Origin: a virus | Reading direction: 5' to 3' (one strand) | Virus record (IMG/VR): IMGVR_UViG_3300021375_000176 | Span: 1 to 22,496 of that record | DNA length: 22,496 nt | Part shown: positions 10,833 to 22,273 of the stretch, in pieces | How positions within the stretch are numbered: the first letter of the stretch is position 1 | How the letters are laid out: each line of letters begins with the position of its first letter | The notes under the pieces: generated by a model | What the model was told of the DNA's origin: nothing | Database searches by the model: none | The model's input: the letters and a program-made list of their open reading frames with translations, nothing else | Program-made: the position numbers and the translations under genes

Positions 10833-10901
10833 CCGTTATCTCTTCAGATACGCCTTCAACGGTAGCGTATGACACCAGTTTTACCTGGTGTTTCGAGTAA
10901 C
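10833..10901 (-). ncRNA. Hammerhead-ribozyme-like element G (SSB/primase junction)
   Basis: Read on the minus strand: CUC-GAAA, stem III (ACACCAG/CUGGUGU, loop GUAAAA), GUC with predicted cleavage between 10871 and 10870. Then comes stem I (AUACGCU/GGCGUAU) with loop A-CCGUU-GAA, and CUGAAGA-GAU. Position 7 is A rather than U, which the hammerhead consensus allows. Loop CCGUU pairs with AACGG (10833-10837). Its stem III differs in sequence and loop from the other copies yet still pairs. GUUACUC before GAAA can alternatively pair with GAUAAC after the core. Confidence 0.8.
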
Positions 10902-10922
10902 TCTCTCCTCCAAGAAAGTTAC
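10897..10922 (-). other. 9-bp hairpin with GGAGG loop next to ribozyme G
   Basis: On the minus strand GTAACTTTC (10914-10922) pairs with GAGAGTTAC (10897-10905) around the loop TTGGAGGA. It shares GUUAC with the 5' flank of ribozyme G, so the two folds overlap. It lies in the 43 bases between the SSB stop and the ribozyme. Confidence 0.6.
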
Positions 10923-10936
10923 CGAGGGGTTCTTAC

Positions 10937-11488
10937 TTAAAACTCATCATCTGCATCAATGTCAAGATCTAATTCAGAATCATCTTTAAACGGCGATGCT
11001 TCAACAAATTCAGCGCCTTTTTCAATAGTTCCAAATTCCGAGCCAGGAGGAATATCAGCTTCATAAGGAATTAAATCAGATACTAAAACGTTTTTAAGCG
11101 ACATAGAAGTACCACTAGTTCCATTATATTTCCAATCGTACGTGTCATAAGAAATAGTTCCTTTAGATCCGTTACCCACAGTTACACCCACTAAAGGAAC
11201 AATCAAACCTGCGGCATCTTTAGTAAATACCCCCGGTGCTTTAAGCTCTTTCCCGCCTGCGGTAACCGCATTTGCCTTAAAAGTTAGCTTATATTGCCCT
11301 GTTTCATTACCATCTGCATCTTCAACCGGGCGTAAAGAACGTATTAAACCTTTCTTTTTAAATTCTGAAGCTGTTTTCTTATCAACATTAGCTGTTGCTG
11401 ACCATTGTTTTTTCTCAAAATTTAATTGAGGATTTTTAGGGTCGAGAAAACACCAACTTAATTCAACATTTTCTAATAAATTTGCCAT
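10937..11488 (-). CDS. Single-stranded DNA-binding protein (T7 gp2.5-like)
   Basis: The 183-residue protein has an OB-fold-like beta-rich body (about 1-150) with ELSWCFLDPKNPQ near the start, and a strongly acidic tail ending DLDIDADDEF. An acidic tail with terminal Phe is the hallmark of T7 gp2.5-class SSBs, which use it to contact DNA polymerase and primase-helicase. Its length is close to that of gp2.5 (232), and it lies between the exonuclease and primase-helicase genes, the expected partners. The ribosome site is AAGGAG, with the start adjacent to the exonuclease stop. Body motifs alone are weak; the tail and context carry the call. Confidence 0.85.
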   Translation of the reverse strand: MANLLENVELSWCFLDPKNPQLNFEKKQWSATANVDKKTASEFKKKGLIRSLRPVEDADGNETGQYKLTFKANAVTAGGKELKAPGVFTKDAAGLIVPLVGVTVGNGSKGTISYDTYDWKYNGTSGTSMSLKNVLVSDLIPYEADIPPGSEFGTIEKGAEFVEASPFKDDSELDLDIDADDEF

Positions 11489-12346
11489 TTATATTTCTCC
11501 TTTTCTTAATATTTGTGGAAGATTCCACATTTCATTTTTTGCTCTTCTCATCCAAAGCAATCTTCCCATTTCAACCATCACACATTTGTGAAATTCTCCA
11601 TAGGCATTTTTATAAGCTTTAGCAATTGCAACCCAAGCATCATCAATTTCAGGATTTGCAGCTAATATTTTTTCAGCAGTTACTTTTCCTATTTTAGGAA
11701 CGCCTTGAATATTATCTACAGAATCACCAGTTAACATTTGAAATTGCATTGATCTCATGCCGTCAAACTCTGTTACATAACTTGCTTCTTCTTTTCTAAA
11801 GTTATATTTATTGCCAGGAACCATCCAAAGATCTTTGTCTACAGTGCATATGCATGTACCATCAGGGTCTTTAGTTTGGGCAATAGCTAAAGTATCATCC
11901 GCTTCTTCATCAACGCTTATAACCACATCATATTTATCAATTAAATAATTCCTTACTTTTTGGTAATAATACGGTTTTTCAGAAGTTCTATTTCCTTTAT
12001 AAGGCTTAGTTACAGCAATGTCTTTTCTAAAATTAGTATCTCCCGATAAATGAATTTCAAAAGTTTCACATTGTGCCTCTCGTGCTATTTTTAAAATAAA
12101 ATTGTCAATAAATTCAACACACGATTTCCATTTAGTTAAACGAATATCTCCAGCTTCAATTTCTAATTCTTCATCGCCAAAATCCATTAAATCGTTAGCT
12201 GAGTCTTGAGCAAATCTTTTACTTTCTCTTGAATCTAGCACTTCGCCACCACTATTTACAACATCGAAATAATTAGTTTGGCCCCAATTTGCTGACCAAT
12301 ATACTAATACGTCTCCGTCAATTAGCGCTTTCATTTGTTTCTTCAT
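11489..12346 (-). CDS. 5'-3' exonuclease (T7 gp6-like, FEN/PIN fold)
   Basis: The 285-residue nuclease removes RNA primers and degrades DNA 5' to 3'. Metal-binding acidic clusters of the FEN family appear in order: LIDGDVL (D10, D12), VDEEADD (E147, E148, D150, D151), TVDKDLWMVPG (D170, D172) and LTGDSVDNIQGVPKIG (D208, D211). The last is followed by the helix-hairpin-helix GVPKIGKVTAEKIL that binds DNA. It begins inside the last codons of the GIY-YIG gene (29-base overlap) with a GGAGTAAGAT site. It is grouped with SSB, primase-helicase and polymerase. Confidence 0.93.
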   Translation of the reverse strand: MKKQMKALIDGDVLVYWSANWGQTNYFDVVNSGGEVLDSRESKRFAQDSANDLMDFGDEELEIEAGDIRLTKWKSCVEFIDNFILKIAREAQCETFEIHLSGDTNFRKDIAVTKPYKGNRTSEKPYYYQKVRNYLIDKYDVVISVDEEADDTLAIAQTKDPDGTCICTVDKDLWMVPGNKYNFRKEEASYVTEFDGMRSMQFQMLTGDSVDNIQGVPKIGKVTAEKILAANPEIDDAWVAIAKAYKNAYGEFHKCVMVEMGRLLWMRRAKNEMWNLPQILRKGEI

Positions 12347-12845
12347 ATCTTACTCCAAAATATTGAGAAATAATCCATTCAATTTCTTGGGGACTAGCAT
12401 TAAACCACTCGTTTTGTCGTTTGTACTTAGTTCCTAAAATTTGATGAATTTGTCCCTCAGTTTCATGTCTATCTTCAGTATAAAATTTACTATACAATTT
12501 ATAAGACCTATGCGGATCTCCAGTTTGGTATTTATTTAATCTATCTTTAGCATTAATACTCATACCAACTTTAACCCAGCCTTTAAAAGCTTTATTAATC
12601 ATAATATAAATTTCGCCGGAAATATCTTTGCTGTCTAATTCAGCATGTGACCATGCATCATCTAACGATTTAAATATTCCAGGTTTATGAATTTTGCTTG
12701 TAATGGGAATATATTTTCCATCCAAGAACATTCGCTTTTTATTGTATTTTATTTTAAAACATGTTCTACAGAACTTATGTTTGCCTTTTACTGACCAATT
12801 AGTTCCTTCAACAAGCTCTACTTTACAACTTGTGCATGTACTCAT
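12318..12845 (-). CDS. GIY-YIG / T5orf172-type nuclease with N-terminal zinc finger
   Basis: This 175-residue protein has an N-terminal CxxC...CxxC zinc finger (C4, C7, C26, C29) and a degenerate GIY-YIG domain. The domain includes GEIYIM (77-82) in place of GIY, WVKVGMS (90-96) in place of YIG, R102 in DRLNKYQTGDPHRS, a Glu in RHETEGQIH and a final NEWF (145-148). The spacing and EWF ending match T5orf172/MUG113-type phage nucleases. It has its own promoter-like site (12863-12884) and AATAGGAG ribosome site. It could be a free-standing homing endonuclease or a DNA-processing enzyme of the replication module; the sequence does not decide. Confidence 0.8.
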   Translation of the reverse strand: MSTCTSCKVELVEGTNWSVKGKHKFCRTCFKIKYNKKRMFLDGKYIPITSKIHKPGIFKSLDDAWSHAELDSKDISGEIYIMINKAFKGWVKVGMSINAKDRLNKYQTGDPHRSYKLYSKFYTEDRHETEGQIHQILGTKYKRQNEWFNASPQEIEWIISQYFGVRYEETNESAN

Positions 12846-12862
12846 ATATCTCCTATTTTTAA

Positions 12863-12884
12863 TATATACTATACAACCGCGTAA
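12863..12884 (-). promoter_or_regulatory. Putative phage RNAP promoter P5
   Basis: The minus-strand sequence is GTTACGCGGTTGTATAGTATAT, one of five sites sharing TACGCGGATGTATA (here GGTTG for GGATG). It lies just after the TAG stop of the 62-residue gene and about 20 bases before the GIY-YIG start codon. TATA followed by a purine resembles the initiation end of T7-class promoters. Confidence 0.6.
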
Positions 12885-13073
12885 CTAATCATCTAACATT
12901 TCATCGTCGTTAGGCAAAAGATCCTCATCAACAAAAAATCCTTGATCATTATAAAATTCTTCATCTCGTGAGCCGTCTGTTCTATTAATTAAAAATATTA
13001 ATTTATCAATAGCTTCTGGGTCTCCTGTGCTAAGTCCGTAATGCTCGCATAGCTCTTCAAATTCGCTTGCCAT
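12885..13073 (-). CDS. Small acidic hypothetical protein
   Basis: This ORF encodes 62 residues, very acidic overall (PNDDEMLDD at the C-terminus), with no Zn or membrane motif and no family recognised. AAGGAG precedes the ATG. It is the first gene after the RNA polymerase. A very acidic small protein next to the RNAP could be a polymerase regulator or a DNA mimic, but this is only a guess from charge and position. Confidence 0.7.
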   Translation of the reverse strand: MASEFEELCEHYGLSTGDPEAIDKLIFLINRTDGSRDEEFYNDQGFFVDEDLLPNDDEMLDD

Positions 13074-13096
13074 ACTTTACTCCTTATTAATTATAT

Positions 13097-13144
13097 GTGA
13101 GGAAGCCTAACCTCTTACGAGATTATATATTTAGCTTCCTTCAC
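13097..13144 (-). other. Large hairpin spanning the RNAP stop codon
   Basis: On the minus strand GTGAAGGAAGC (13134-13144) pairs with GCTTCCTCAC (13097-13106) with one bulge. An inner 7-bp stem TAATCTC/GAGGTTA is closed by a GUAA (GNRA) tetraloop. The RNAP TAA stop (13115-13117) is part of that loop. There is no T-run after it, so a processing or stability element is likelier than a terminator. Confidence 0.65.
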
Positions 13145-15346
13145 ATCTTGTATATCTAAATTACCATACATTACTGGATGAGCATGCAGCCCAAACGTTT
13201 TAAGAGTGTCACCTAATTGATCTTTTTCAAAGATTTCAATAAATGTTTCTTTAAATGTTTCTAACAATAATGATGTTTCTGCAGCATTAACAGAAAATTG
13301 ATCATGAATCATCATAAACGATTCAACTCCTTTATCAGCTAAATTAGCTATAGTTAATGTTAATAACGCAGCATCTTGTGAATGCACGAAATTAGCGCTT
13401 ATTCCTTTAGCATGATCGCTTTTCATTGGTTTATCTATAAACAATTGAAACGACAATTGTACTAATTTTCCAGCAAAACTACAATTAACTCTTCCTGTTT
13501 CAATTCTGGAATAATCTTGAAACGCTGTAAATCCTGATTCAGTTTTCCAAGTTACTAAAGCTTTGCCGTTATTTCTTCTTAAAGCTTCTTCAACTCCAAG
13601 CTTTAATGCTTCTTTAGCTTGAGTTTGTCTAGGAAATGCTGATTCAACGCCATCGTAAATTGCTGTACCTACGTAAGAAGCATCATCAAAACTCATTTCT
13701 GACAACACGCTAAAACCATGTTCTCTGCGATCATCATAAGTTTGTTCTTGAATGCATTCTCTTCCCGCATCATAATAATATGACATAGTAGGTCTTTTAC
13801 ATAGCTTACGCCAGGCTTTATTACCTAAATTTTCATAATTTTTATAAGCAAATCCGCCGTTTAACACAGAATTAGCAATTACCATATAAGCATCACCAAT
13901 TTCTTGGGTTGGATGGTTGATAACATTAGTTTCTTGAGCACCAACAGTATCTCTAGTTACGGCTGATAAAACTTGCAAACCAGAATTAGTTGCATCTAAT
14001 CCAATTGGCAAATGACAAACATAACTTTCACCCTGCTCATGATATTTTTTCCATTCTAGTACGGCAGCCATTAATTGAAATTTAGATTTCTTTTCATTTT
14101 TAAATTGATCTAACCATTTTGAATTTGTTAAATCTTCTGCAGCTTCTAAAATTTCATCCATATGCACCCATACAAATAACACTCTATCATCCATAGCTAA
14201 TTTATCTTCTCCCATACAATTTGCTGTATGAACCGCTAAATTATATAAAACATCATCGGTTACAGATGCACCATTTTTAAAAATTAACAAACTTTTAGCT
14301 AAATCAGAGCCTGTTGGCTCAAAATAATTAACAACAGGATACATACGCCCCCGACTATCTAATTGAAAATCATAATGAAAAGTTTTATTACGCATTCTTT
14401 GCGCCATAAAAGCTACTTTATCAAATTCATATCTTTTTGACGAGGCCCTTACAAGATCAAGAGGTTCGCTTGTTTTTTCTTTAAACCAACCTGAAGCTTT
14501 TCTTTTGCTATATTTTTTGCTTCTTCCATCTATTTGAACAGTTGTTAAGCCTTTTTTCATTAATTGCTGACTTACATTTGCTAAATACCACTTTTTTGCT
14601 TGTTCTCCTACAAAATCTGAAATTCTTCTAAATTTCATTAACGAATACAAAGCATTAGAAACTTCTTCAGCATCAGTTGCTTTAGGAATAAATTTATGCT
14701 TATTTTCATCCATTTGCAATAATATTGGCAATAAATCCTCGTTTACTTGAAATTTAGTGCTGCCATAAGCATTTAAAGCTGCATAAACTTTAGGCATTTT
14801 TGCATGCGTATATTGAGAAGTTAAAGATTTAGGCATCTTTTTAACAATTGTTCTTCCATCTTTTCTTGGATGGGTCCAATAAGTGTATTCTTCTTTAGGA
14901 AGTTCTAATTCTGAAATTGTTAATTGTTCTTTAAAATAATCAAATAATAAATTATTTTCATTTATAAAGTCTAATTTGTTTAATTTCATAACTCCTTGTC
15001 TTTCAGTTACTTTGTCTATATAATTTAAAGACTTTAAAGAACCAAATGCTTCTACTCCAGCCGATATTAAAGCGTATTTAACTTTTCTATTAGTGCCTGC
15101 TTTTAAATTAAACGTCGTAAATTTGTTCATTTCAATAGCAAGACTTTCAGCTGCCGTAGTTAATCCCGTTCCTTTAGAAATTGCTTTTATTGTGTGGTCT
15201 AAAATTAACTTTGCTAAACCCCGAACATTATCTGTCCCTAATAATACTTTTCTAAAAGCAGACTTAGGTCCCCTAGGTATAGCAGCGGTCATATGATTTA
15301 TTTGACCGGTTATTTGTAGAAGCAATGTTTCTCTTCTATTTTCCAT
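13115..15346 (-). CDS. Phage single-subunit DNA-directed RNA polymerase (T7-like)
   Basis: The 743-residue polymerase (T7 has 883; the shortening is mainly N-terminal) has all family motifs. These are DSRGRMYP (DxxGR, 330-334), motif A LDATNSGLQ (D451), motif B KRPTMSYYYD (K517, Y525; T7 has YG at the end, here YD), then ANFVHSQD (651-658) and motif C HDQF (H681-D682). It should transcribe the phage middle and late genes from the repeated GGATGTATA sites. It has a strong AAAAGGAGGG ribosome site, is preceded by two very small genes, and is the largest gene of the middle region. It is not closely similar to the RNAP-like domain at the left edge: the shared residues are essentially the catalytic motifs. 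Confidence 0.96.
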   Translation of the reverse strand: MENRRETLLLQITGQINHMTAAIPRGPKSAFRKVLLGTDNVRGLAKLILDHTIKAISKGTGLTTAAESLAIEMNKFTTFNLKAGTNRKVKYALISAGVEAFGSLKSLNYIDKVTERQGVMKLNKLDFINENNLLFDYFKEQLTISELELPKEEYTYWTHPRKDGRTIVKKMPKSLTSQYTHAKMPKVYAALNAYGSTKFQVNEDLLPILLQMDENKHKFIPKATDAEEVSNALYSLMKFRRISDFVGEQAKKWYLANVSQQLMKKGLTTVQIDGRSKKYSKRKASGWFKEKTSEPLDLVRASSKRYEFDKVAFMAQRMRNKTFHYDFQLDSRGRMYPVVNYFEPTGSDLAKSLLIFKNGASVTDDVLYNLAVHTANCMGEDKLAMDDRVLFVWVHMDEILEAAEDLTNSKWLDQFKNEKKSKFQLMAAVLEWKKYHEQGESYVCHLPIGLDATNSGLQVLSAVTRDTVGAQETNVINHPTQEIGDAYMVIANSVLNGGFAYKNYENLGNKAWRKLCKRPTMSYYYDAGRECIQEQTYDDRREHGFSVLSEMSFDDASYVGTAIYDGVESAFPRQTQAKEALKLGVEEALRRNNGKALVTWKTESGFTAFQDYSRIETGRVNCSFAGKLVQLSFQLFIDKPMKSDHAKGISANFVHSQDAALLTLTIANLADKGVESFMMIHDQFSVNAAETSLLLETFKETFIEIFEKDQLGDTLKTFGLHAHPVMYGNLDIQDVKEAKYIIS

Positions 15347-15358
15347 CTATCCCTCCTT

Positions 15359-15490
15359 TTATCTACGCAAAATCAATCTTTTTATAAGATAATAAACAAA
15401 TCCTATATGATAGGCTATTTTAAAAATAACCCAATATAATAATTTATCTATTGGAGTTTTATTTTTTGCTTTATTATTTTTATAATCCAT
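15359..15490 (-). CDS. Very small membrane protein upstream of the RNAP
   Basis: This ORF encodes 43 residues: a lysine-rich N-terminus (MDYKNNKAKNKTPIDK), then a hydrophobic segment (LLYWVIFKIAYHIGFVYYLI) and a basic end KRLILRR. That is one predicted transmembrane helix. AGGAG lies 6 bases before the ATG and the stop is 12 bases before the RNAP start codon. The family is unknown; the clean ribosome site and position in a packed operon support it. Confidence 0.6.
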   Translation of the reverse strand: MDYKNNKAKNKTPIDKLLYWVIFKIAYHIGFVYYLIKRLILRR

Positions 15491-15499
15491 TTATTACTC

Positions 15500-15679
15500 C
15501 TATCTATTCCAATCTTTTTTCCAAAAATTTCTTGGTTTTACATAGTTTTTTATTTCTTTACCAACATTTTCTTTACCATTAATGTTTTTATCTAACAAAT
15601 CCCATTCTAAATCAGTTTTGCTTTTTTGATTTTTAACATGTTCAGCTAATTCTTTAAAAGTTCGTCTAACTAATTTCAT
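15500..15679 (-). CDS. Small basic hypothetical protein
   Basis: This ORF encodes 59 residues, beginning MKLVRRTFKELAEHVKNQKS, lysine-rich and without cysteines. The start ATG overlaps the stop of the 92-residue gene as ATGA, implying translational coupling. It ends with an AGGAG that serves the next gene. No family was recognised. Confidence 0.65.
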   Translation of the reverse strand: MKLVRRTFKELAEHVKNQKSKTDLEWDLLDKNINGKENVGKEIKNYVKPRNFWKKDWNR

Positions 15680-15954
15680 AAGAAATCACTCATTGACATG
15701 CCAGCATCTTTCATAGCATCAAAATCTTTACGTTTAGATTCGTTTCTAAATTCTTCAGCATCCGAATCATGCCTATCATCATAATTTGAAAAAGGAGACA
15801 AAGGCGCTAATGGTACGGGCCTTTCCGTTTCTTTTTTAGATTTTACTATTTTTATAGCATCAGGTGTCCATTTAGAATTAATCTCTGGATTGTCTGCTAG
15901 TATTTCAGTTCTTGCTTTATTAGCTTCTAACATTTTTTCTTCGATCGTTTTCAT
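15676..15954 (-). CDS. Hypothetical protein, probably largely disordered
   Basis: This ORF encodes 92 residues, highly charged, with a proline stretch (RPVPLAPLSPF) and a DDRHDSDAEE segment in the middle. A short conserved-looking end (MKDAGMSMSDFL) is reminiscent of a scaffold or interaction tail. ACAAGGAG precedes the ATG. It is the first gene after ribozyme F, whose predicted 3' cleavage product would carry it. The function is unknown. Confidence 0.7.
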   Translation of the reverse strand: MKTIEEKMLEANKARTEILADNPEINSKWTPDAIKIVKSKKETERPVPLAPLSPFSNYDDRHDSDAEEFRNESKRKDFDAMKDAGMSMSDFL

Positions 15955-15973
15955 ATTTCTCCTTGTATTAATT

Positions 15974-16030
15974 GAGTTATCTCATCAGTTAGAACTTCAA
16001 CTCTGTTCTAAGACGCCCGAAGGCGTTTCG
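15974..16030 (-). ncRNA. Hammerhead-ribozyme-like element F
   Basis: Read on the minus strand: C-GAAA, stem III ACGCC-UUCG-GGCGU, C17 with predicted cleavage between 16012 and 16011, stem I UUAGAAC/GUUCUAA with loop A-GAGUU-GAA, then CUGAUGA-GAU. Loop GAGUU pairs with AACUC (15974-15978). A second CGAAACGCCUUCGGGC copy lies just upstream (16031-16050). The element lies between a small membrane-protein gene and the 92-residue gene. Confidence 0.85.
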
Positions 16031-16050
16031 TGTTGCCCGAAGGCGTTTCG
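16031..16050 (-). repeat. Partial duplication of ribozyme F stem III
   Basis: CGAAACGCCTTCGGGC is repeated 20 bases upstream of the functional copy, but it is followed by AACAC instead of GUC and so has no cleavage triplet. Its CGCC could pair with the GGCG of the downstream copy, giving an alternative longer stem III. It begins 3 bases after the stop codon at 16054. Confidence 0.8.
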
Positions 16051-16053
16051 AAT

Positions 16054-16152
16054 TTATGCATCTAAAATTATTAAGCTTAAAACAAATCCTAAAACTAATA
16101 ATTGACCAAACATTATCCATTCTGGCAAAGTGCTCAAAGTCCAACCACTCAT
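16054..16152 (-). CDS. Very small membrane protein
   Basis: This ORF encodes 32 residues, with a short polar N-terminus (MSGWTLSTLPEW) and one hydrophobic helix (IMFGQLLVLGFVLSLIIL). The ATG overlaps the lipoprotein stop as ATGA, and GGAGGAAGAGGT lies just upstream as ribosome site. The pair lipoprotein plus membrane peptide suggests a joint function in the envelope. The family is unknown. Confidence 0.6.
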   Translation of the reverse strand: MSGWTLSTLPEWIMFGQLLVLGFVLSLIILDA

Positions 16153-16322
16153 ACCTCTTCCTCCACCATTATAGGTTTATTTCCTAACCAGCCTATGCAT
16201 CCTTGAGCATCTGCAGGCGCACATTCTATTTGCCCTCTAGTTTGATGCTCGATCATTTGTTGTTCAAGTTCGCCGCAGCCAACTAAAGCAAGCATAGAAA
16301 TTATTACTACATATTTTATCAT
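16149..16322 (-). CDS. Small phage lipoprotein
   Basis: This ORF encodes 57 residues. A signal peptide MIKYVVIISMLALVGC ends in the lipobox LVGC (C16 lipidated), leaving a 42-residue mature part with two further cysteines (C35, C42). AAGGA precedes the ATG. Small lipoproteins expressed outside the lysis cassette, as in T5 Llp, often block superinfection by masking the receptor. An outer-membrane spanin is the alternative, but no partner spanin or holin is visible here. The lipobox is seen in the sequence; the function is inference. Confidence 0.7.
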   Translation of the reverse strand: MIKYVVIISMLALVGCGELEQQMIEHQTRGQIECAPADAQGCIGWLGNKPIMVEEEV

Positions 16323-16343
16323 AATTTATCCTTATATTTATAA

Positions 16344-16610: not shown

Positions 16611-16614
16611 ATTA

Positions 16615-17358
16615 TTATTCCTTTAATTTAAAATCAACTTTATCATAAGGAAAATAATCGTGGTATATAAGTTCTTTTCCGTCCCAATTAAACTTTATTT
16701 TAGAATGATTTGGAATTCTGTATGTAATCATATCTTCAATAGCTTGTAAATGCTCTTGATAAATATGAGTATCACCAAAATTCATAATTACTTTTCCAGG
16801 AATTAATTTAGTTTTTCTACCTATTTCAGATAAATACAACGCCGAAAGAATTAAGTCACTGGGTAACCCAATAGCTACATCTAAACTTCGTTGTGTCCAA
16901 ATTAAATCTAAAAATCCATTTCTAACATAAAATTGGTAATTAAAATGGCAGCAAGGCAAACTAAGTTTATCCAAACGTTCAGAATTCCATAAATTAATCA
17001 TATGTCTTCTGCTATTTGGATCTTTCTTAATACCTTCAATCAAAGCTTCCCATTGTTCTCTGGGTGGGTAATCTAATTCAAGTTTACCATTTTTATCTGC
17101 CCAAAGTTTCCAATATGGACAACCTAAGGCTTCAAATTCTTCAACTGTTTTAGCATCTTGTAAAAAGCCTAAAAACTCTCCCACTATACCTTTAGTAAAA
17201 ATCTCCCTATAACTTAATAAAGGAAGTCCTGTTTCAGCTATGTCAAATTTAATACTAGTACCAAAAACGCTCAAAGTTTCACCATTTCTAGTATTTCTTT
17301 GAACGCCTTCGGTTAAAACTTTTTCGACAAGCTGTTTATACACCTCATCAATATACAT
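16615..17358 (-). CDS. ThyA-family enzyme, predicted dCMP (hydroxy)methylase rather than thymidylate synthase
   Basis: The 247-residue protein has the family fold landmarks: RNTRNGETLSVFG (phosphate loop), GEFLGFL (catalytic Glu61), DPNSRRH (R117, R118), LPCCH (nucleophile C137), QRSLDVAIGLP (D160) and GDTHIYQEH (H198, Y200). The residue 8 after D160, Asn177 in E. coli ThyA and the dUMP selector, is Asp168 (GLPSDL). T4 dCMP hydroxymethylase also has Asp there, and Asn-to-Asp at this site is known to switch the enzyme toward dCMP. The usual C-terminal folate-closing tail is also altered. I infer a dCMP-acting methylase or hydroxymethylase. Neighbouring MazG and DUF5664 genes fit nucleotide-pool remodelling. 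Ordinary thymidylate synthesis is the alternative. Confidence 0.85.
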   Translation of the reverse strand: MYIDEVYKQLVEKVLTEGVQRNTRNGETLSVFGTSIKFDIAETGLPLLSYREIFTKGIVGEFLGFLQDAKTVEEFEALGCPYWKLWADKNGKLELDYPPREQWEALIEGIKKDPNSRRHMINLWNSERLDKLSLPCCHFNYQFYVRNGFLDLIWTQRSLDVAIGLPSDLILSALYLSEIGRKTKLIPGKVIMNFGDTHIYQEHLQAIEDMITYRIPNHSKIKFNWDGKELIYHDYFPYDKVDFKLKE

Positions 17359-17362
17359 AATG

Positions 17363-17497
17363 TTATTTAAAACTATTTATATATTTAAGAGCTTTAGCAG
17401 CTGAACGACTGCTAATGCCATGATACCTCATTAGCATTTTTCTTGCATCGTTGTGTTTGCCAAAATTATGTGCTGTTATTTTAGTGTGTGCTTTCAT
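17363..17497 (-). CDS. Very small basic hypothetical protein
   Basis: This ORF encodes 44 residues, strongly basic (MKAHTKITAHNFGKHNDARK, then RSAAKALKYINSFK). It starts TAATG-coupled to the DUF5664 gene, with GGAG upstream, and ends 4 bases before the ThyA-like start. It may bind nucleic acid, judged only by charge and a helix-like second half. No family was recognised. Confidence 0.6.
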   Translation of the reverse strand: MKAHTKITAHNFGKHNDARKMLMRYHGISSRSAAKALKYINSFK

Positions 17498-17793
17498 TAT
17501 TTACTCCAATTGTTTGACTCGTAACCGAGTTCTATTAAAAATGCTAGATTTGTACTAGCGTGAGCTAGGTGAGTAAATCCACTTTCAGGATCAACTATTT
17601 CACCTTTACGATAGGCTTCGAGATGTCTATACAAAGCGCCAACGTATCTTTCAGGGTCATCAACAGATTTCCAATTATAAGCGCCGTATTTATTTGCGCC
17701 AAATGTTAAAACTTCTGCAATACCTTGAATTATTTTAGGCGGAACTAAATCATAACGAGTTTTGCCGCCATCAAATTTTTTAAATTCTTCCAT
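17497..17793 (-). CDS. DUF5664 / dATP-dGTP diphosphohydrolase N-terminal-type protein
   Basis: The 98-residue protein has the family pattern: KFDGGKTRYDLVPP (6-19), LTFGANKYGAYNW (29-41), YRHLEAYRKGEIVDPESG (55-72) and HLAHASTNLAFL (75-86). These alpha-helical phage proteins relate to MazG-type all-alpha NTP pyrophosphatases; a member in cyanophage S-2L is a dGTP/dATP diphosphohydrolase. Here it would remove particular dNTPs or balance the pool. It is a single short domain, so it may act as an oligomer. GAGGGAG precedes the start, and a putative phage promoter lies about 20 bases upstream. Confidence 0.8.
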   Translation of the reverse strand: MEEFKKFDGGKTRYDLVPPKIIQGIAEVLTFGANKYGAYNWKSVDDPERYVGALYRHLEAYRKGEIVDPESGFTHLAHASTNLAFLIELGYESNNWSK

Positions 17794-17809
17794 TTATATC
17801 TCCCTCATT

Positions 17810-17831
17810 TATAACTATACATCCGCGTATT
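17810..17831 (-). promoter_or_regulatory. Putative phage RNAP promoter P4
   Basis: The minus-strand sequence is AATACGCGGATGTATAGTTATA. It is embedded in the last codons of the 57-residue gene: GCG GAT GTA TAG reads Ala-Asp-Val-stop. It stands about 20 bases upstream of the DUF5664 start. It shares the core with P1, P2, P3 and P5. Confidence 0.65.
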
Positions 17832-17988
17832 GATCTACAGATATATGCTTAAAACCTAATTTTTGCAATATATCTAAAGTTTTTAAAGCAGCTGTAGAAC
17901 TTACAATAACTTCTAAATCTTCGCTTTTAACTGCTAACTTTGCAATTTTATCAATAACATCTGTTATTAACATTTTTTTATTAACCAT
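17815..17988 (-). CDS. Small hypothetical protein
   Basis: This ORF encodes 57 residues, with an alpha/beta-like pattern (LEVIVSSTAALKTLDILQKL) and the end HISVDQYADV. The ATG lies one base after the MazG stop, and GGAGCAATAAA supplies the ribosome site. Its stop codon lies inside promoter P4. The family is unknown; a sequence of this kind recalls small regulatory or nucleotide-binding subunits, without any diagnostic motif. Confidence 0.65.
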   Translation of the reverse strand: MVNKKMLITDVIDKIAKLAVKSEDLEVIVSSTAALKTLDILQKLGFKHISVDQYADV

Positions 17989-17989
17989 T

Positions 17990-18358
17990 TTATTGCTCCG
18001 TTTTTTCTTTAATAAAATCGCCTACTTCATTTAATTCACCTTTTCGATCTTTAATTTCTTGAAATGAAAAGAATAAACATTCTTCAATAGTCATATTTTG
18101 AAGTTTACATTGCATTATAAGGGTTACTATTATATCTCCAATAGCATCTCTTATTTCATGTTGGTTGTTACAATTAACAGCTTCCAACAACTCATGCGTT
18201 TCTTCCAGGGTTTTAATTGCTTGAGTTATTGGATTTCCATTTATTGTTATTTTTCTGTCTTTACCCCAATTTTCTATCTGAAATATTAAGGCTTCTATTC
18301 CTATATTAGGTTTATCAGCCGGTCTATTTTCATTCCATTGAACTTGTATTTCATTCAT
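17990..18358 (-). CDS. MazG-like nucleoside triphosphate pyrophosphohydrolase
   Basis: The 122-residue single MazG domain has the metal-binding signature EETHE (52-56) then E68-x2-D71 and D75 in EIRDAIGD, within two long helices. Such enzymes hydrolyse (d)NTPs to monophosphates. In phages they clear unwanted dNTPs or alter the host stringent response by lowering (p)ppGpp; the second role is debated. With a possible dCMP-modifying enzyme nearby, dCTP would be a logical substrate, which is inference. GGCGGAG precedes the ATG, and the next gene follows at once. Confidence 0.9.
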   Translation of the reverse strand: MNEIQVQWNENRPADKPNIGIEALIFQIENWGKDRKITINGNPITQAIKTLEETHELLEAVNCNNQHEIRDAIGDIIVTLIMQCKLQNMTIEECLFFSFQEIKDRKGELNEVGDFIKEKTEQ

Positions 18359-18404
18359 AACTTCTCCGCCTATTTCTTTTATGCATATAGTGATACATAA
18401 TTAA

Positions 18405-18914
18405 TTATGCGTTTACCTTGTATTTATTTTTGCACCACCACGTTGGCTTCCGTTCAGGCATTTCATTCCAAGCAGCGTAATGCTTTTCGTGGATACAATA
18501 TCTACGATAAGCGGTCACCGGATTTTTATGCTTATACATATCTGGCATAGCCTGTGCAAGTGGTGTAATTTTGCCGATCGGAATATTAAAAGGCGTTTGC
18601 CAGAGCGCATCTTTAAGTTTTGTGTAACTTAAATGCGTTCTAACATAACGTTCTGTATATTCCTCGGACAAAGCTATAAAATGTTGGTATAACCATTCAT
18701 AATTCGCTTTGGATTGTCTAACCCAGATCGAACAAGGATGATTTTTATGAGCTAATTTGTATAAAGAATGCTTATCGGCATATCCATCTCCGTCAAGCAC
18801 TCTATGCGCAGTAGACAACATTTGAGCAGTCTCAAGCACCATTTTAACTAACATTTTATCAGGTTGAACTTTTGCAGCTTCAACAGGATTTTTATCAAAA
18901 TAAAATATATTCAT
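18405..18914 (-). CDS. Conserved phage protein of unknown function
   Basis: The 169-residue protein has the signature KMVLETAQMLSTAHRVLDGD (24-43), NHPCSIWVRQSKANYEWLYQHF (59-80; Trp/His-rich helix) and ITPLAQAMPDMYK (116-128), then AYRRYCIHEKHY. I recognise this pattern from many tailed-phage genomes but know of no established function; some annotations liken it to pyrimidine-dimer glycosylases, which I cannot confirm. Conserved His, Asp and Cys residues suggest an enzyme. It has its own promoter-like site and lies directly after ribozyme E. TGGAG precedes the start, and it opens the nucleotide-metabolism segment. Confidence 0.8.
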   Translation of the reverse strand: MNIFYFDKNPVEAAKVQPDKMLVKMVLETAQMLSTAHRVLDGDGYADKHSLYKLAHKNHPCSIWVRQSKANYEWLYQHFIALSEEYTERYVRTHLSYTKLKDALWQTPFNIPIGKITPLAQAMPDMYKHKNPVTAYRRYCIHEKHYAAWNEMPERKPTWWCKNKYKVNA

Positions 18915-18930
18915 GCTTTATTTCTCCATT

Positions 18931-18952
18931 TATATTTATACATCCGTATAAA
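18931..18952 (-). promoter_or_regulatory. Putative phage RNAP promoter P3
   Basis: The minus-strand sequence is TTTATACGGATGTATAAATATA. It lies 4 bases downstream of the pseudoknot strand of ribozyme E and about 20 bases before the start at 18914. A transcript from here would not contain ribozyme E; read-through transcripts from upstream would. Confidence 0.6.
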
Positions 18953-18955
18953 TTT

Positions 18956-19012
18956 GTGCTATCTCATCAGTTATACTTTCAGCACTAGTATAAGACGCCC
19001 GAAGGCGTTTCG
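18956..19012 (-). ncRNA. Hammerhead-ribozyme-like element E
   Basis: Read on the minus strand: C-GAAA, stem III ACGCC-UUCG-GGCGU, C17 with predicted cleavage between 18994 and 18993, stem I UUAUACU/AGUAUAA with loop A-GUGCU-GAA, CUGAUGA-GAU. Loop GUGCU pairs with AGCAC (18956-18960). Classical stem II is only one G-C pair. The GAAA starts 4 bases after the upstream stop codon. Confidence 0.85.
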
Positions 19013-19015
19013 TTT

Positions 19016-19273
19016 TTATTTTCGATCAGGTATTTTATAATCCGACCAATGCCCTTTAATTTTTTCAAAACCTAAATTATGTTGCATTGAAAATCTTAAG
19101 TAATCCATGGAACTTAATTCGCTTAAACGAAAATCCATTGTTTCACCTAATTCATTCATTGCTTCATTAAATGTATTGAAATATCCGCACATTTTCCTAT
19201 AATTTTCAATAGGCATAGTAATTATTGCGTCTTCTTTTGTGTATTTTACTGTTGCTTTTTCATGATTTTGCAT
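19016..19273 (-). CDS. Early hypothetical protein
   Basis: This ORF encodes 85 residues, alpha-helical, with several methionines and one cysteine (IENYRKMCGYFNTFNEAMNE). It has no recognised family. CGGAG lies before the ATG. It lies in the cluster of small early genes separated by ribozyme-like elements; such genes usually encode host-takeover factors, which the sequence neither supports nor excludes here. Confidence 0.7.
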   Translation of the reverse strand: MQNHEKATVKYTKEDAIITMPIENYRKMCGYFNTFNEAMNELGETMDFRLSELSSMDYLRFSMQHNLGFEKIKGHWSDYKIPDRK

Positions 19274-19290
19274 TTTTATCTCCGTTTTTA

Positions 19291-19380
19291 TTAAAATAAA
19301 TGAATTGCGACCGTTTTCACGGCCACAAATATGATTGTTCCCATAATTAAATGCGAAATTGTCATTATTAAATCATTCAT
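19291..19380 (-). CDS. 29-residue membrane peptide
   Basis: An ATG directly follows the previous TAA and encodes 29 residues that are almost entirely one hydrophobic helix (IMGTIIFVAV, ending IHLF). AGGTGAAGAG supplies a ribosome site inside the upstream gene. The reading frame also contains a GGCCGU-GAAA-ACGGUC hairpin. Small early phage membrane peptides often target the host envelope, but this is uncertain. Confidence 0.5.
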   Translation of the reverse strand: MNDLIMTISHLIMGTIIFVAVKTVAIHLF

Positions 19381-19665
19381 TTACTCTTCACCTATATAAG
19401 TAACATTTGCATTACTTTTATTTATTTTTATTTCAACAAGTGTGTCAAGATTTCTTACAACAATTTTAAAATTTTTAGTCATTTTAACAAATATTAGACC
19501 AAATTCTTCAATAAAATCTTTAGTTTGTTCAATATAATCGGCAAAATCTTCATATTTCTTTTCATCTTGCCATCTATCGTATAAATAAAATAATCGACCA
19601 TCGTCCATAATATTATTTATAAATCCAACAGTTCCTTGATACATATTTTCAGTTAATTCTTTCAT
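19381..19665 (-). CDS. Early hypothetical protein
   Basis: This ORF encodes 94 residues, with an acidic, aromatic-rich N-terminal half (RLFYLYDRWQDEKKYEDFAD) and a beta-like C-terminal part (FKIVVRNLDTLVEIKI). The family was not recognised. TGGAG precedes the ATG. It is the first gene downstream of ribozyme D, whose 3' product would carry it. Confidence 0.7.
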   Translation of the reverse strand: MKELTENMYQGTVGFINNIMDDGRLFYLYDRWQDEKKYEDFADYIEQTKDFIEEFGLIFVKMTKNFKIVVRNLDTLVEIKINKSNANVTYIGEE

Positions 19666-19692
19666 TTATATCTCCATTATTGTAAATTTATT

Positions 19693-19754
19693 GTCGAATC
19701 TCATCAGTTGTACCTTCTCGACCGGTACAAGACACCCCGAAGGGTGTTTCGATT
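19693..19754 (-). ncRNA. Hammerhead-ribozyme-like element D
   Basis: Read on the minus strand: AAUC-GAAA, stem III ACACCC-UUCG-GGGUGU, C17 with predicted cleavage between 19731 and 19730, stem I UUGUACC/GGUACAA with loop G-GUCGA-GAA, CUGAUGA-GAUU. It has the best short stem II (GAUU/AAUC, 4 bp). Loop GUCGA pairs with UCGAC (19693-19697). The GAAA begins 5 bases after the stop codon at 19756. Confidence 0.87.
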
Positions 19755-19755
19755 A

Positions 19756-20160
19756 TTATGCAAACATTCTAATTGCGGTATGTTCGGCAATTTTAAACTC
19801 ATCACCACTAATAACACGTTTAACAATGTATGGCATTTTTCTTGCTCTATGATTGTATCCAACAAGTGTGTATTGTCGACCGTTCATAGTACCTTCTTTT
19901 TCTAAGTCAAAAGGCTTTTCTCCTTGCAAAACACGATGATTATTTTCTAATTTAAGAAATTTCATTGTTTCAGTGTCAGCACTAGCTAATCTAACTTTAA
20001 AATTTGTAAATTTAACACTATCTTCATCATAAGTAGCATTACCAAAATCAAGAACTAATCCATTGTCTTCCATAATTACATTAAGTGAATTTTTAATAAT
20101 TTCACGAATTTCATTAATAGTTGTTGGATTTATTTCTTTTATATCGTATTTAATTTTCAT
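19756..20160 (-). CDS. Early hypothetical protein
   Basis: This ORF encodes 134 residues, with an N-terminal helical segment (TTINEIREIIKNSLNVIMED), then a beta-rich part with LDFGNATYDEDSVKFTNFKV and a C-terminal basic stretch (YNHRARKMPYIVKRV). No cysteines or signal peptide were seen and no family was recognised. It is driven by promoter P2 with an ACGGAG ribosome site, and it ends next to ribozyme D. Confidence 0.7.
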   Translation of the reverse strand: MKIKYDIKEINPTTINEIREIIKNSLNVIMEDNGLVLDFGNATYDEDSVKFTNFKVRLASADTETMKFLKLENNHRVLQGEKPFDLEKEGTMNGRQYTLVGYNHRARKMPYIVKRVISGDEFKIAEHTAIRMFA

Positions 20161-20187
20161 TTGTATCTCCGTTATTATAAAATTTTT

Positions 20188-20208
20188 CTTACTTATACAT
20201 CCGCATAA
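20188..20208 (-). promoter_or_regulatory. Putative phage RNAP promoter P2
   Basis: The minus-strand sequence is TTATGCGGATGTATAAGTAAG, the best match to the shared consensus. It lies directly downstream of the T-loop hairpin/terminator of the structured region and about 28 bases before the next start codon. Confidence 0.65.
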
Positions 20209-20220
20209 CTTTTAAAAATT

Positions 20221-20242
20221 AAAAAGAGGGAATCGAACCCTC
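20221..20242 (-). terminator. T-loop hairpin followed by a U tract (terminator-like)
   Basis: GAGGG-TTCGATT-CCCTC, extended to 6 bp by A-T, is followed by TTTTTAATTTTT on the minus strand: a classical intrinsic terminator shape. Its 7-nt loop is the canonical tRNA T-loop. It stands between the structured RNA region and promoter P2, so it could insulate one unit from the next. Confidence 0.65.
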
Positions 20243-20245
20243 TCA

Positions 20246-20580
20246 CCAAAGTATTCACCTTGGGCCACCAGGTAGGGAATCGAACCCTATACACCAGATA
20301 TTCATCTGGCTTCCATTCTTTAAATTGGTGGGACTCGAAAAGATTCACCTGGCCAGGTTTGCCCGAGTTCAGCTCTTCTCTTTTCGTTGCTCAAATATTT
20401 GATGGCTTCGTGGTGTAATCACACACTTTAAGCATTTCCTCTTTTGCCCTCTGTACTTCATCGGTAACACCCCTCGTAAGCCTTGCCTAATAAACCGAAG
20501 TCAAAGAAATATTCCTCTGGAATTATCTCTATTAGGTGGAATTAGTGTTCCTCCATACTCATATTTTCTAACGCACGTCC
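20246..20580 (-). ncRNA. Probable structured non-coding RNA with tRNA-like hairpins
   Basis: No convincing gene fills this stretch. On the minus strand a 67-nt tRNA-like fold (20265-20331) has CCACCA/TGGTGG ends, a CCAGA-TGAATA-TCTGG arm, TAGGG-TTCGATT-CCCTA T-arm and no D-arm. A second arm pair (CCAAG..TTTGG at 20246-20263) adjoins the terminator hairpin. A degenerate third T-loop (TTCGAGTCCC) follows ACCTGGCCAGGTGAAT. Further upstream CCTAATA (20530-20536) pairs with TATTAGG (20486-20492), and GGAACACTAATTCC forms a small hairpin. Arms recur at about 50-nt spacing, too short for real tRNAs. It is bounded by ribozyme C and the terminator hairpin. The function is unknown. Confidence 0.5.
20369..20461 (-). 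CDS. Possible 30-residue peptide with CxxC
   Basis: An ATG with GAGGGG 9 bases upstream encodes 30 residues including KRKCLKC, like half of the small zinc-finger proteins found in phages, but the second CxxC is missing. It lies inside the structured region, so it may be a relic or chance. I give it little weight. Confidence 0.25.
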   Translation of the reverse strand: MKYRGQKRKCLKCVITPRSHQIFEQRKEKS

Positions 20581-20592
20581 CATAAACTTTTT

Positions 20593-20649
20593 GTCGTATC
20601 TCATCAGTTATACCTTCACGACCGGTATAAGACGCCCGAAGGCGTTTCG
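20593..20649 (-). ncRNA. Hammerhead-ribozyme-like element C
   Basis: Read on the minus strand: C-GAAA, stem III ACGCC-UUCG-GGCGU, C17 with predicted cleavage between 20631 and 20630, stem I UUAUACC/GGUAUAA with loop G-GUCGU-GAA, CUGAUGA-GAU. Loop GUCGU pairs with ACGAC (20593-20597). Stem II is one G-C pair, preceded by an A tract that follows the stop codon at 20657. Its 3' product would begin the structured RNA region. Confidence 0.85.
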
Positions 20650-20656
20650 TTTTTTT

Positions 20657-21004
20657 TTATTCTTCTCTAGTTAGCTCATGTAATTCAACCGAATCAAGCT
20701 CATCAATTAAAATTGAATCGTCATCATGTCCAAATGCCCAAGACATTGGCCAAGATAAATCAAGCCATGTTTCTTCGCTGCCTTGATTTTTTTCAAAATA
20801 TTTTAAAGCATCATAAAAACGTTTATAGTATCTTGTTTTTGAATGTTCAGTTTCAACAATAAAATATTCCCCACTTGGACTAGTACTTAGCCAAACATAT
20901 CGACCATTATCAACATCTTTAAAGGATGTTAAATATTCAAATCTAAAATTAATTAAGCCTTTTTTGATTTTATCCGCTCTTTCTTTATTTATTGGATTAT
21001 TCAT
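20657..21004 (-). CDS. Early hypothetical protein
   Basis: This ORF encodes 115 residues from the ATG at 21004, which has GGGAG 7 bases upstream. A longer frame open to 21064 would start inside ribozyme B and has no ribosome site, so the shorter form is preferred. The product has a basic N-terminus (NKERADKIKKGLINFRFEYL), many aromatics and an acidic C-terminus (HDDDSILIDELDSVELHE). No family was recognised. Confidence 0.75.
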   Translation of the reverse strand: MNNPINKERADKIKKGLINFRFEYLTSFKDVDNGRYVWLSTSPSGEYFIVETEHSKTRYYKRFYDALKYFEKNQGSEETWLDLSWPMSWAFGHDDDSILIDELDSVELHELTREE

Positions 21005-21028
21005 TTTTGTCTCCCTAATTAAAATTTT

Positions 21029-21087
21029 GAGGTATCTCATCAGATATGTTTTCACCTCTAACATATGACGCCCGAAGGCGTTTCGAT
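21029..21087 (-). ncRNA. Hammerhead-ribozyme-like element B
   Basis: Read on the minus strand: AUC-GAAA, stem III ACGCC-UUCG-GGCGU, C17 with predicted cleavage between 21067 and 21066, stem I AUAUGUU/AACAUAU with loop A-GAGGU-GAA, CUGAUGA-GAU. Stem II GAU/AUC has 3 bp; loop GAGGU pairs with ACCUC (21029-21033). Stem I and its loop are identical to element A while stem III differs. Confidence 0.86.
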
Positions 21088-21088
21088 T

Positions 21089-21373
21089 TTAGTATTGAAC
21101 AACAACCTCTTCGTTGTCACATTGAATAATCAATGCATCATCATATAGGTCGTCAACTGGAACTTGTAGGTCATGAGCTGCTTCATCGATTGATTTATAA
21201 CCGCTGAACTCACCCCTTAAAGCTACCACGTCCATTGAATATGGATTGTCTTCGTCATGAACATCATTAAGAAACTCAACCAAACCCCAAGCTTGGTTAA
21301 CTGTCCAACCTGCATTGTCATCACTCATCAACATTCCAACTGCTTCACTGTCTGTCATTTCCATTATTATCAT
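21089..21373 (-). CDS. Early acidic hypothetical protein
   Basis: This ORF encodes 94 residues from the ATG at 21373, preceded by ACGGAG; an upstream TTG gives a 99-residue form but includes the ribosome site. It is strongly acidic throughout (WTVNQAWGLVEFLNDVHDED, then DVVALRGEFSGYKSIDEAA). The middle pattern (aromatic helix, acidic loop, DxVAhRxEFxxYxSxxEA) resembles a family I have seen in other phages, of unknown function. The acidity would suit a DNA mimic, but this is a guess. Confidence 0.75.
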   Translation of the reverse strand: MIIMEMTDSEAVGMLMSDDNAGWTVNQAWGLVEFLNDVHDEDNPYSMDVVALRGEFSGYKSIDEAAHDLQVPVDDLYDDALIIQCDNEEVVVQY

Positions 21374-21384
21374 TTTTATCTCCG

Positions 21385-21436
21385 TCAATTAAATCACAAT
21401 TGCCCACTATTTTTAATGAGCAATAATTATTTAATT
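21385..21436 (-). repeat. 52-nt intergenic hairpin cassette, copy 1
   Basis: AATTAAAT..ATTTAATT (8 bp) encloses ATTGCTCA/TGGGCAAT (8 bp with one U-G pair). It covers the stop codon of the upstream gene and ends at the ribosome site of the next. It differs by one base from the copy at 21685-21736. Confidence 0.85.
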
Positions 21437-21673
21437 TCGATCGATTTCAATTATGCTTAAAGCATTAAGAACTTCAGCCATAAGCTCATCGGCTTGGCTT
21501 GGTACACAATACATTCTATGCAATTTGCCAATAATTGGCTCATACATTTCATGAATTGAATTTGCTTTTGCTTGAAGTTGTTTGTTTTCTTCTTTAAGCT
21601 TGGCAATTTTAGAAACCATTTTATCCATTCTTTCTTGAATTCGGTCTTCTCTTTTTCCACCTTTGTGATGCAT
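21431..21673 (-). CDS. Early coiled-coil hypothetical protein
   Basis: This ORF encodes 80 residues from the ATG at 21673 (MHHKGGK), which has TGGAG 6 bases upstream; the five-residue longer form would use that ribosome site as coding. Residues about 8-40 form a heptad-rich, charged coiled coil (MVSKIAKLKEENKQLQAKAN). The C-terminal part ends ALSIIEIDRN, with one cysteine. It probably oligomerises. The family was not recognised. Confidence 0.7.
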   Translation of the reverse strand: MHHKGGKREDRIQERMDKMVSKIAKLKEENKQLQAKANSIHEMYEPIIGKLHRMYCVPSQADELMAEVLNALSIIEIDRN

Positions 21674-21684
21674 ATTTTTCTCCA

Positions 21685-21736
21685 TCAATTAAATCACAAT
21701 TGCCCACTATTTCTAATGAGCAATAATTATTTAATT
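21685..21736 (-). repeat. 52-nt intergenic hairpin cassette, copy 2
   Basis: This copy is identical to 21385-21436 except for one base in the hairpin loop region. It occupies the same place: overlapping the stop codon of the upstream gene (21735) and abutting the next ribosome site. Confidence 0.85.
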
Positions 21737-22043
21737 ATTCACAACTTTTATATTCAATATCTTCCTTAAACAATTTCCAATTATCAAATTGTTCATGTCG
21801 ATATCCCACAAGTTTAAACCACATTCTATGAAATTTTTCGTCGTTGTCAATCATACAAAAAGCAGTTGTTTTGCCTTCACTATGATTAAGGTCGTGACTA
21901 TGTAAATCTAAAACTTTTTTAGATACTTTTAATTCTGGATTGTTTTTGATGAATAAAGAACTTAATTTTATTCCTTGTTTTTCAAAAGCTTTTCCAATTT
22001 CTATAATAGTATCAACCGCATATAAATTTATTTCGTTTAGCAT
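21735..22043 (-). CDS. Early hypothetical protein
   Basis: This ORF encodes 102 residues, with an N-terminal helix (NEINLYAVDTIIEIGKAFEK), a His/Asp-rich middle (LDLHSHDLNHSEGK) and an aromatic C-terminus (RMWFKLVGYRHEQFDNWKLF) with two cysteines. AAGGAGAG precedes the ATG. It is the first gene after promoter P1 and its structured leader. No family was recognised. Confidence 0.7.
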   Translation of the reverse strand: MLNEINLYAVDTIIEIGKAFEKQGIKLSSLFIKNNPELKVSKKVLDLHSHDLNHSEGKTTAFCMIDNDEKFHRMWFKLVGYRHEQFDNWKLFKEDIEYKSCE

Positions 22044-22070
22044 TTTTCTCTCCTTCCTATTAAAATTCTA

Positions 22071-22183
22071 TATAAGTAAAGGAACTAAGTTCCCGACATA
22101 GTCTCACTCATTCCAGTTTTTTGTGTTGAAGTAATCATCTCCAACTGTGGCTTTATTGTGTGAACTTAATTCCCTTACTTATA
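22071..22183 (-). other. Structured 5' leader with a 22-bp stem
   Basis: TATAAGTAAGGGAATTAAGTTC (22162-22183) pairs with 22071-22092 over 22 bp, two of them G-U, around a loop of about 70 nt with its own CAGTT/AACTG pairing. The stem begins at the TATA of promoter P1, so the 5' end of that transcript would be double-stranded. It ends about 27 bases before the start codon. Confidence 0.75.
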
Positions 22184-22194
22184 CATCCAAATAA
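22174..22194 (-). promoter_or_regulatory. Putative phage RNAP promoter P1
   Basis: The minus-strand sequence is TTATTTGGATGTATAAGTAAG. It shares GGATGTATA and the downstream AAGTAAG with P2. It lies between ribozyme A and the leader of the 102-residue gene. The G/C at the two bases before GG is lost, so it may be weaker. Confidence 0.6.
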
Positions 22195-22206
22195 TTTTAA
22201 TTCTTT

Positions 22207-22273
22207 GAGGTATCTCATCAGATATGTTTTCACCTCTAACATATGACACCCCAATTTCTTGAGGTGTTTCGAT
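22207..22273 (-). ncRNA. Hammerhead-ribozyme-like element A
   Basis: Read on the minus strand: AUC-GAAA, stem III ACACCUCAA-GAAA-UUGGGGUGU (9 bp, GNRA loop), C17 with predicted cleavage between 22245 and 22244, stem I AUAUGUU/AACAUAU with loop A-GAGGU-GAA, CUGAUGA-GAU. Loop GAGGU pairs with ACCUC (22207-22211). Stem III is longer and differs in sequence and loop from the other copies, while the core is unchanged. Confidence 0.87.

Follow-up and report, generated by a model that had tools for sequence, protein, structure and literature searches.

Seven type II hammerhead sequences between early genes of a T7-like phage and their proposed role in dividing the transcript

How might a phage divide a long early transcript into separate messages if the cutting device were part of the transcript itself? 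The question is raised by seven hammerhead-like elements (A to G) lying between genes on the minus strand of a 22,496-base virus record, IMGVR_UViG_3300021375_000176, which was analysed whole, is possibly a fragment, and is referred to here as the window. The minus strand carries an early/replication module of a T7-like phage, and an earlier note on this DNA had proposed that the elements act at its gene junctions. Analysis of the sequence strongly supports all seven as genuine type II hammerhead sequences, and we consider it likely that their role is cotranscriptional cutting of the early/replication transcript into single-gene or short messenger RNAs (mRNAs).

The core pattern CGAAAC..GUC..CUGANGAGA has seven minus-strand matches, which are the seven elements, with no match on the plus strand and none when the pattern is read backwards across the whole window. 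A structural descriptor also gave seven matches, against about 0.03 expected (6 in 200 dinucleotide shuffles). On the minus strand all share the layout C-GAAA-(stem III hairpin)-GUC-(stem I of 7 base pairs [bp] with a loop of 9 nucleotides [nt])-CUGANGA-G, and CUGANGA, GAAA, the A15.1-U16.1 pair and the GUC cleavage triplet are found in all seven. The bases of a type II core (C3U4G5A6N7G8A9, G12A13A14, A15.1-U16.1 and an NUH triplet) are thus in place, stems I and III are closed by loops, and stem II is open. The earlier note's positions for the elements, its claim that every core base is kept, and its type II assignment are all borne out, with one refinement: stem II has just 1 to 4 bp by the descriptor (reliably 1 to 3), with G10.1-C11.1 in all seven.

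All seven are co-oriented with their genes and are restricted to the early strand. Element A (22207-22271, with a predicted cut after 22245 and a 9-bp stem III) begins 4 nt past the stop of the open reading frame (ORF) at 22276-22494 and is followed by a non-coding RNA, with 201 nt to the next start. Element B (21029-21085, predicted cut after 21067) has the same stem I and pseudoknot as A, begins 3 nt past a stop codon, and has an ATG 62 nt past its cut. Element C (20593-20649, predicted cut after 20631) begins 7 nt past a stop and opens into a conserved non-coding RNA, with 470 nt to the next start. Elements D (19693-19751, predicted cut after 19731) and E (18956-19012, predicted cut after 18994) follow stop codons by 4 and 3 nt and have ATGs 65 and 79 nt past their cuts; a copy of a 19-bp repeated motif stands immediately downstream of E. 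Element F (15974-16030, predicted cut after 16012, ATG 57 nt past it) is preceded on its 5' side by a half copy consisting of GAAA and a stem III hairpin (16031-16050, minus strand), which begins 3 nt past the stop of a 32-amino-acid ORF; this half-duplication, already seen in the earlier note, is also kept beside element F in the related viral contig L008. Element G (10833-10895, core CUGAAGA, predicted cut after 10871, ATG 65 nt past it) lies between the SSB-like and primase-helicase genes and starts 41 nt past the SSB-like stop, behind another hairpin. ORFs and ribosome sites were called mechanically; the gaps of A and F were read by hand, that of F being counted to its half copy. Six of the seven therefore begin shortly past a stop codon (3 to 7 nt), as had been claimed. 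The further claim, that a ribosome site comes next, is directly true of B, D, E, F and G (57 to 79 nt from cut to ATG) and not of A and C, where a non-coding RNA comes first.

The earlier note overlooked a 6-bp pseudoknot that is present in all seven elements. In loop I, which is laid out as N-(6 nt)-AA, the six bases between N and AA form pairs with six that start two positions past CUGANGA, right after stem II, which provides a tertiary contact from stem I to the stem II side in every case. Six different pairings occur among the seven: GAGGUG/UACCUC in both A and B, GUCGUG/UACGAC in C, and GUCGAG/UUCGAC, GUGCUG/UAGCAC, GAGUUG/UAACUC and CCGUUG/UAACGG in the others. Stem I (7 bp) and stem III (5 to 9 bp) are perfectly paired throughout. 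Covariation was assessed in an alignment of 30 distinct elements, taken both from the window and from related viral contigs, for which seven stem I pairs and at least four pseudoknot pairs were required; a match in L186 with a shifted pseudoknot was left out. Standard pairs form in 98.1% of cells, pseudoknot included. Under that entry rule, pairing reaches 100% in stem I, where each of the 7 pairs varies on both sides, and 93.9% in the pseudoknot, where 5 of 6 pairs do so. Stem III also covaries strongly, and its pairs, described before as variable yet always kept, are retained across the 30 elements. The covariation score is 0.71, compared with 0.20 in shuffles and less than 0.1 when partners are slid, and two-sided changes occupy 149 cells compared with 45 in shuffles, with CUGANGA, GAAA and GUC invariant. 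Such compensatory changes in the stems and pseudoknot argue that selection acts on the RNA. Stem I is complete (7 of 7 pairs) in every viral match of the bare subtype pattern. Bacterial and archaeal genomes gave 14 matches, which keep 1 to 3 of those 7 pairs and were set aside as chance; the minimal-stem-II subtype is thus viral in the collections scanned.

The placement seen in the window recurs elsewhere. A survey of viral contigs with a loose hammerhead pattern, followed by the descriptor, yielded at least 112 distinct type II elements in at least 79 contigs. Among the matches listed, 83 of 112 (74%) start 1 to 10 nt past the co-oriented stop of an ORF of at least 45 amino acids, compared with 3.9% of random positions; 89 of 112 have a ribosome-site-like start 40 to 72 nt past the cut (13% at random); and 64 of 112 show both features, compared with 0.54% at random and with 2 of 112 when the opposite strand is read. 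This enrichment is not built into the search, since the descriptor used no gene positions. Series of 3 to 8 hammerheads, spaced in the same stop-hammerhead-start manner, occur in contigs L089, L071, L129 and L074.

Under the proposed role, each element would fold as the early/replication transcript emerges and cut itself after GUC. Neither reading frame would be harmed by the cut, because the motif starts just past the stop and falls short of the ribosome site that follows. The upstream mRNA would keep its whole stop codon and end bluntly in the stem III hairpin, often UUCG-looped, with a 2',3'-cyclic phosphate; the stable 3' hairpin that the earlier note expected there is upheld as a predicted structure of about -7 to -12 kcal/mol. 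The downstream piece, which that note had passed over, would carry a 5'-OH, stem I and the pseudoknot ahead of a ribosome site or, after two of the elements, a non-coding RNA. Both new ends may be hidden from common exonuclease pathways, to the possible benefit of the phage, and the early genes would come to lie on single-gene or short mRNAs whose ends are protected, with no need of a host nuclease to produce them. We infer self-cleavage by analogy with characterized type II hammerheads, one of which, with a 1-bp stem II and a 6-bp pseudoknot, has a cutting rate above 1.2 per minute at 0.5 mM Mg2+ (PMC3088659). The reading of these elements as gene-junction processors is partly supported: placement here and in other viral contigs agrees with it, and cleavage itself is predicted.

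Several points weigh against this reading. By hand count, about 6 of about 21 early junctions bear a hammerhead, and A and C open non-coding stretches, not genes. We infer the stability of the pseudoknot in the cleaved product, since fold prediction cannot score pseudoknots. T7-like relatives with RNA polymerases 62 to 69% identical (among L010-L031) gave no hammerheads, covariance model included, so the function is dispensable or replaced there. Rfam scans of the window at relaxed thresholds (E up to 1) returned no hammerhead, and in the covariance-model search that the earlier note had named as a check, a targeted one with RF02276 (Hammerhead_II), no element reached the gathering threshold of 37 bits and element D alone was picked up, at 24 bits. 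We count this score among the contrary points, although a gathering threshold is a detection rule and not a property of a ribozyme. RF02276 recognizes most elements of the L089 and L071 arrays, in which stem II is mostly longer, and the minimal stem II of the window elements is the probable reason that they are missed. Standard RNA annotation thus overlooks this minimal-stem-II subtype.

Alternatively, regulation may be primary and message separation secondary: the downstream gene would be tuned by cleavage, or by ribosomes, proteins or ligands that inhibit it. Perreault et al. 2011 (PMC3088659) put forward regulation as a general role of hammerheads in bacteria. The elements do start within a ribosome footprint of the stop codon, where a terminating ribosome could block folding. 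However, no aptamer- or switch-like extension is attached to them, their stems vary freely while pairing is always kept, and the downstream genes are of mixed kinds, and we regard a primarily regulatory role as improbable.

Comparison with hammerhead-bearing relatives bears on a second alternative. Six hammerheads were counted in L008 (RNA polymerase 91% identical), six in L185, three in L026 (88%), two in L188 and one in L104. Gene order between hammerheads differs among the window, L008, L185 and L104: in the window, C comes next after the gene that follows B; in L185 that place is taken by another hammerhead, and in L008 a homologue of window 19016-19273 comes directly after the gene. The gene before B has a hammerhead next in all three records having that gene. 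L188 has an element between its primase-helicase and DNA polymerase genes, a junction at which the window has none; element F of L026 lies 3 nt past a stop codon different from the window's, the distance being equal; and the structural genes of both L185 and L104 (portal, terminase, scaffold and capsid) occupy the opposite strand, without a hammerhead. Element B is identical letter for letter to the L008 element at 593, and A to the L104 element at 12730. The flanks of these matching elements are 66% and 74% identical for B and 68% and 64% for A, compared with a mean of 56% and values up to 68% for random 50-mers, and the genes downstream are 54 to 58% identical between records. Identical ribozymes despite near-background flanks suggest copying or exchange between junctions, and selection alone could contribute to this identity.

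The reordered modules, together with letter-identical copies among diverged genes and flanks, would also fit dispersed repeats, spread by DNA-level copying or recombination, that mark points of module exchange and have little use at the RNA level. The strong compensatory change in stems and pseudoknot is at odds with this, and so is the tight constraint on where, and in which direction, the elements lie with respect to stop and start codons; we think the explanation unlikely. Tentatively, and with clearly less confidence than in transcript cutting, we suggest that hammerheads could be a general stop-ribozyme-start junction part in phage genomes, with the gene modules they bound acting as self-releasing RNA cassettes and the ribozyme repeats as exchange points. 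If true, early-operon genes and non-coding RNAs could be swapped, added or moved without repair of transcription signals.

A third alternative is that the RNAs set free by neighboring pairs are closed into circles or linked to one another, through a ligase or through reversal of the cutting reaction. Segments B-C, C-D and D-E are each flanked by two hammerheads, and both products would bear ligatable ends (5'-OH and 2',3'-cyclic phosphate). Against it, the window proteins scanned gave no match to an RNA ligase or kinase family, and no spliced or circular RNA came to light when Perreault et al. searched for it among the products of such arrays (PMC3088659); ligation is very unlikely to explain the series. 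That the elements are plain stable hairpins, serving as 3' stabilizers or as terminators (for example, of plus-strand RNA) with an incidental hammerhead core, is hardly credible: stem III followed by T-rich sequence does score as terminator-like on the plus strand at 18993, 19730, 20630 and 21067, but the core is invariant in 30 elements, the partners of loop I lie at a distance, the transcribed strand has no long U tract next to it and no plus-strand genes were recognized in the region, and the terminator reading was dropped on the covariation evidence.

The genes served by the array are those of a replication module. Minus-strand products include a T7-type RNA polymerase (13115-15346), an SSB-like protein, an exonuclease, a primase-helicase and a DNA polymerase, as well as ribonucleotide reductase, thymidylate synthase, a MazG-like protein, a dATP/dGTP pyrophosphohydrolase and the products of many small ORFs. 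The nearest named phages are distant: the best by DNA polymerase is Vibrio phage 1.208.B, at 34% identity, and by RNA polymerase the nearest stands at 28%. On the plus strand, 38-3088 encodes a 1016-amino-acid protein whose T7-type RNA polymerase domain is divergent (PF00940, E 7.5e-15), predicted to be a second, unusual single-subunit polymerase beside that of 13115-15346. A T5orf172/MUG113-domain protein (12318-12845, minus strand), possibly a homing endonuclease, is present in L008, L026 and L010 and has no counterpart in the other relatives compared.

Two non-coding RNAs are headed by hammerheads. The first, a structured RNA (20329-20582, minus strand) right after C, has a counterpart at 11949-12209 of L185, with about 85% identity over 55 nt, 72% over 204 nt and six compensatory pairs; its closing pair is UGGGAC/GUCCCA, followed by CCA. 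No Rfam family matched it, and neither ARAGORN nor Rfam found a transfer RNA (tRNA) gene in it. A likeness to RNase P motifs was considered and dropped, as no RNase P family of Rfam matched even with E allowed to reach 5, and a 19-nt match in L207 appears to lie in a ribonucleotide-reductase-like frame and is probably coincidence. The second (22044-22190, minus strand), after A, has a 22-bp closing helix (arms 22162-22183 and 22071-22092), a fold z-score of -5.5 and partial similarity to L185 9161-9259.

Other structured elements occupy nearby junctions. Tandem units at 20216-20317 (minus strand), each a (U/G)GAAU-loop hairpin followed by a hairpin like a tRNA T-arm (UUCGAUU loop), are 89% identical in L026 (474-575), with compensatory changes seen by eye; they have no D-arm and were not recognized as tRNA. 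The 19-bp intergenic motif TTAYRCGGAYGTATARRTA occurs on the minus strand at 22176-22194, 20190-20208, 18933-18951 and 17812-17830, and in L008, L026, L104, L185 and L176, always co-oriented with early genes; three of the four window copies lie downstream of hammerhead or hammerhead/non-coding RNA units. It could be a promoter, given a TATA like that of T7-type promoters, or an operator, given the dyad TTATAC-GGAT-GTATAA, or else an RNA hairpin. A second junction element, a 66-nt repeat (94%) at 21371-21436 and 21671-21736 (minus strand), forms the hairpin AUUGCUCA..UGGGCAAU directly after stop codons at hammerhead-free junctions, with compensatory changes in L185 (about 10464-10525). The hairpin 5' of G (10897-10922, minus strand, GGAGGA within its loop) is kept in near relatives, and comparable hairpins stand at the SSB/primase junction of hammerhead-less relatives (L010, L011, L022 and L019); it is possibly older than the hammerhead at that junction.

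How does this array compare with known systems? The earlier note knew of no series of hammerheads used as gene-junction processors, which was mistaken: prophage hammerhead clusters that flank single genes or short gene blocks were described in 2011, together with the proposal that long phage transcripts are processed into single-gene or operon-length mRNAs, and three such arrays cut in vitro, one of them, from Agrobacterium, also in E. coli (PMC3088659). Stop codons go unmentioned in the main text of that paper, a review from 2017 still lists what hammerheads do in bacteria and phages as an open question (PMC6155905), and within the open-licence literature we found no later papers testing the proposal. 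The window resembles the clusters of Clostridium scindens, Azorhizobium and Agrobacterium (PMC3088659, Fig. 3) in having several hammerheads that are co-oriented with, and flank, genes or short blocks in a phage genome; it differs in that seven lie on the early/replication strand of one T7-like phage fragment and in that their stop-to-start placement has been quantified. With other type II hammerheads (PMC3088659, RF02276) the elements share the core, closed stems I and III, open stem II and the pseudoknot between loop I and the tail, which is typical of the type and was essential for fast cutting in the example with a 1-bp stem II (PMC3088659). They differ in a stem II of 1 to 3 bp, with a best RF02276 score of 24 of 37 bits, and in a stem I fixed at 7 bp with a 9-nt loop ending in GAA.

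The further long arrays in L089, L071 and L129, for which no related named phages were found, are likewise type II series with stop-hammerhead-start spacing, and differ in a mostly longer stem II (2 to 5 bp). In T7, early RNA is cut between genes by host RNase III, which leaves the messages with 3' hairpins. The present array, in a phage of related kind, would likewise cut at early-gene junctions and leave 3' hairpins, here predicted; the difference is that T7 uses a host protein enzyme, whereas a built-in ribozyme leaving 5'-OH and 2',3'-cyclic phosphate ends is predicted here.

In sum, the ribozyme type, its pseudoknot, the prophage arrays and the processing proposal were already published in 2011, and what is new is this array, a minimal-stem-II subtype outside the reach of Rfam, the measured stop-hammerhead-start rule, the shuffling of modules and the hammerhead-headed non-coding RNAs. 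A seven-element array with exact predicted cut sites, and a placement rule seen in dozens of viral contigs, make the 2011 proposal directly testable, and relatives in which elements have been gained, lost or shuffled add to that testability.

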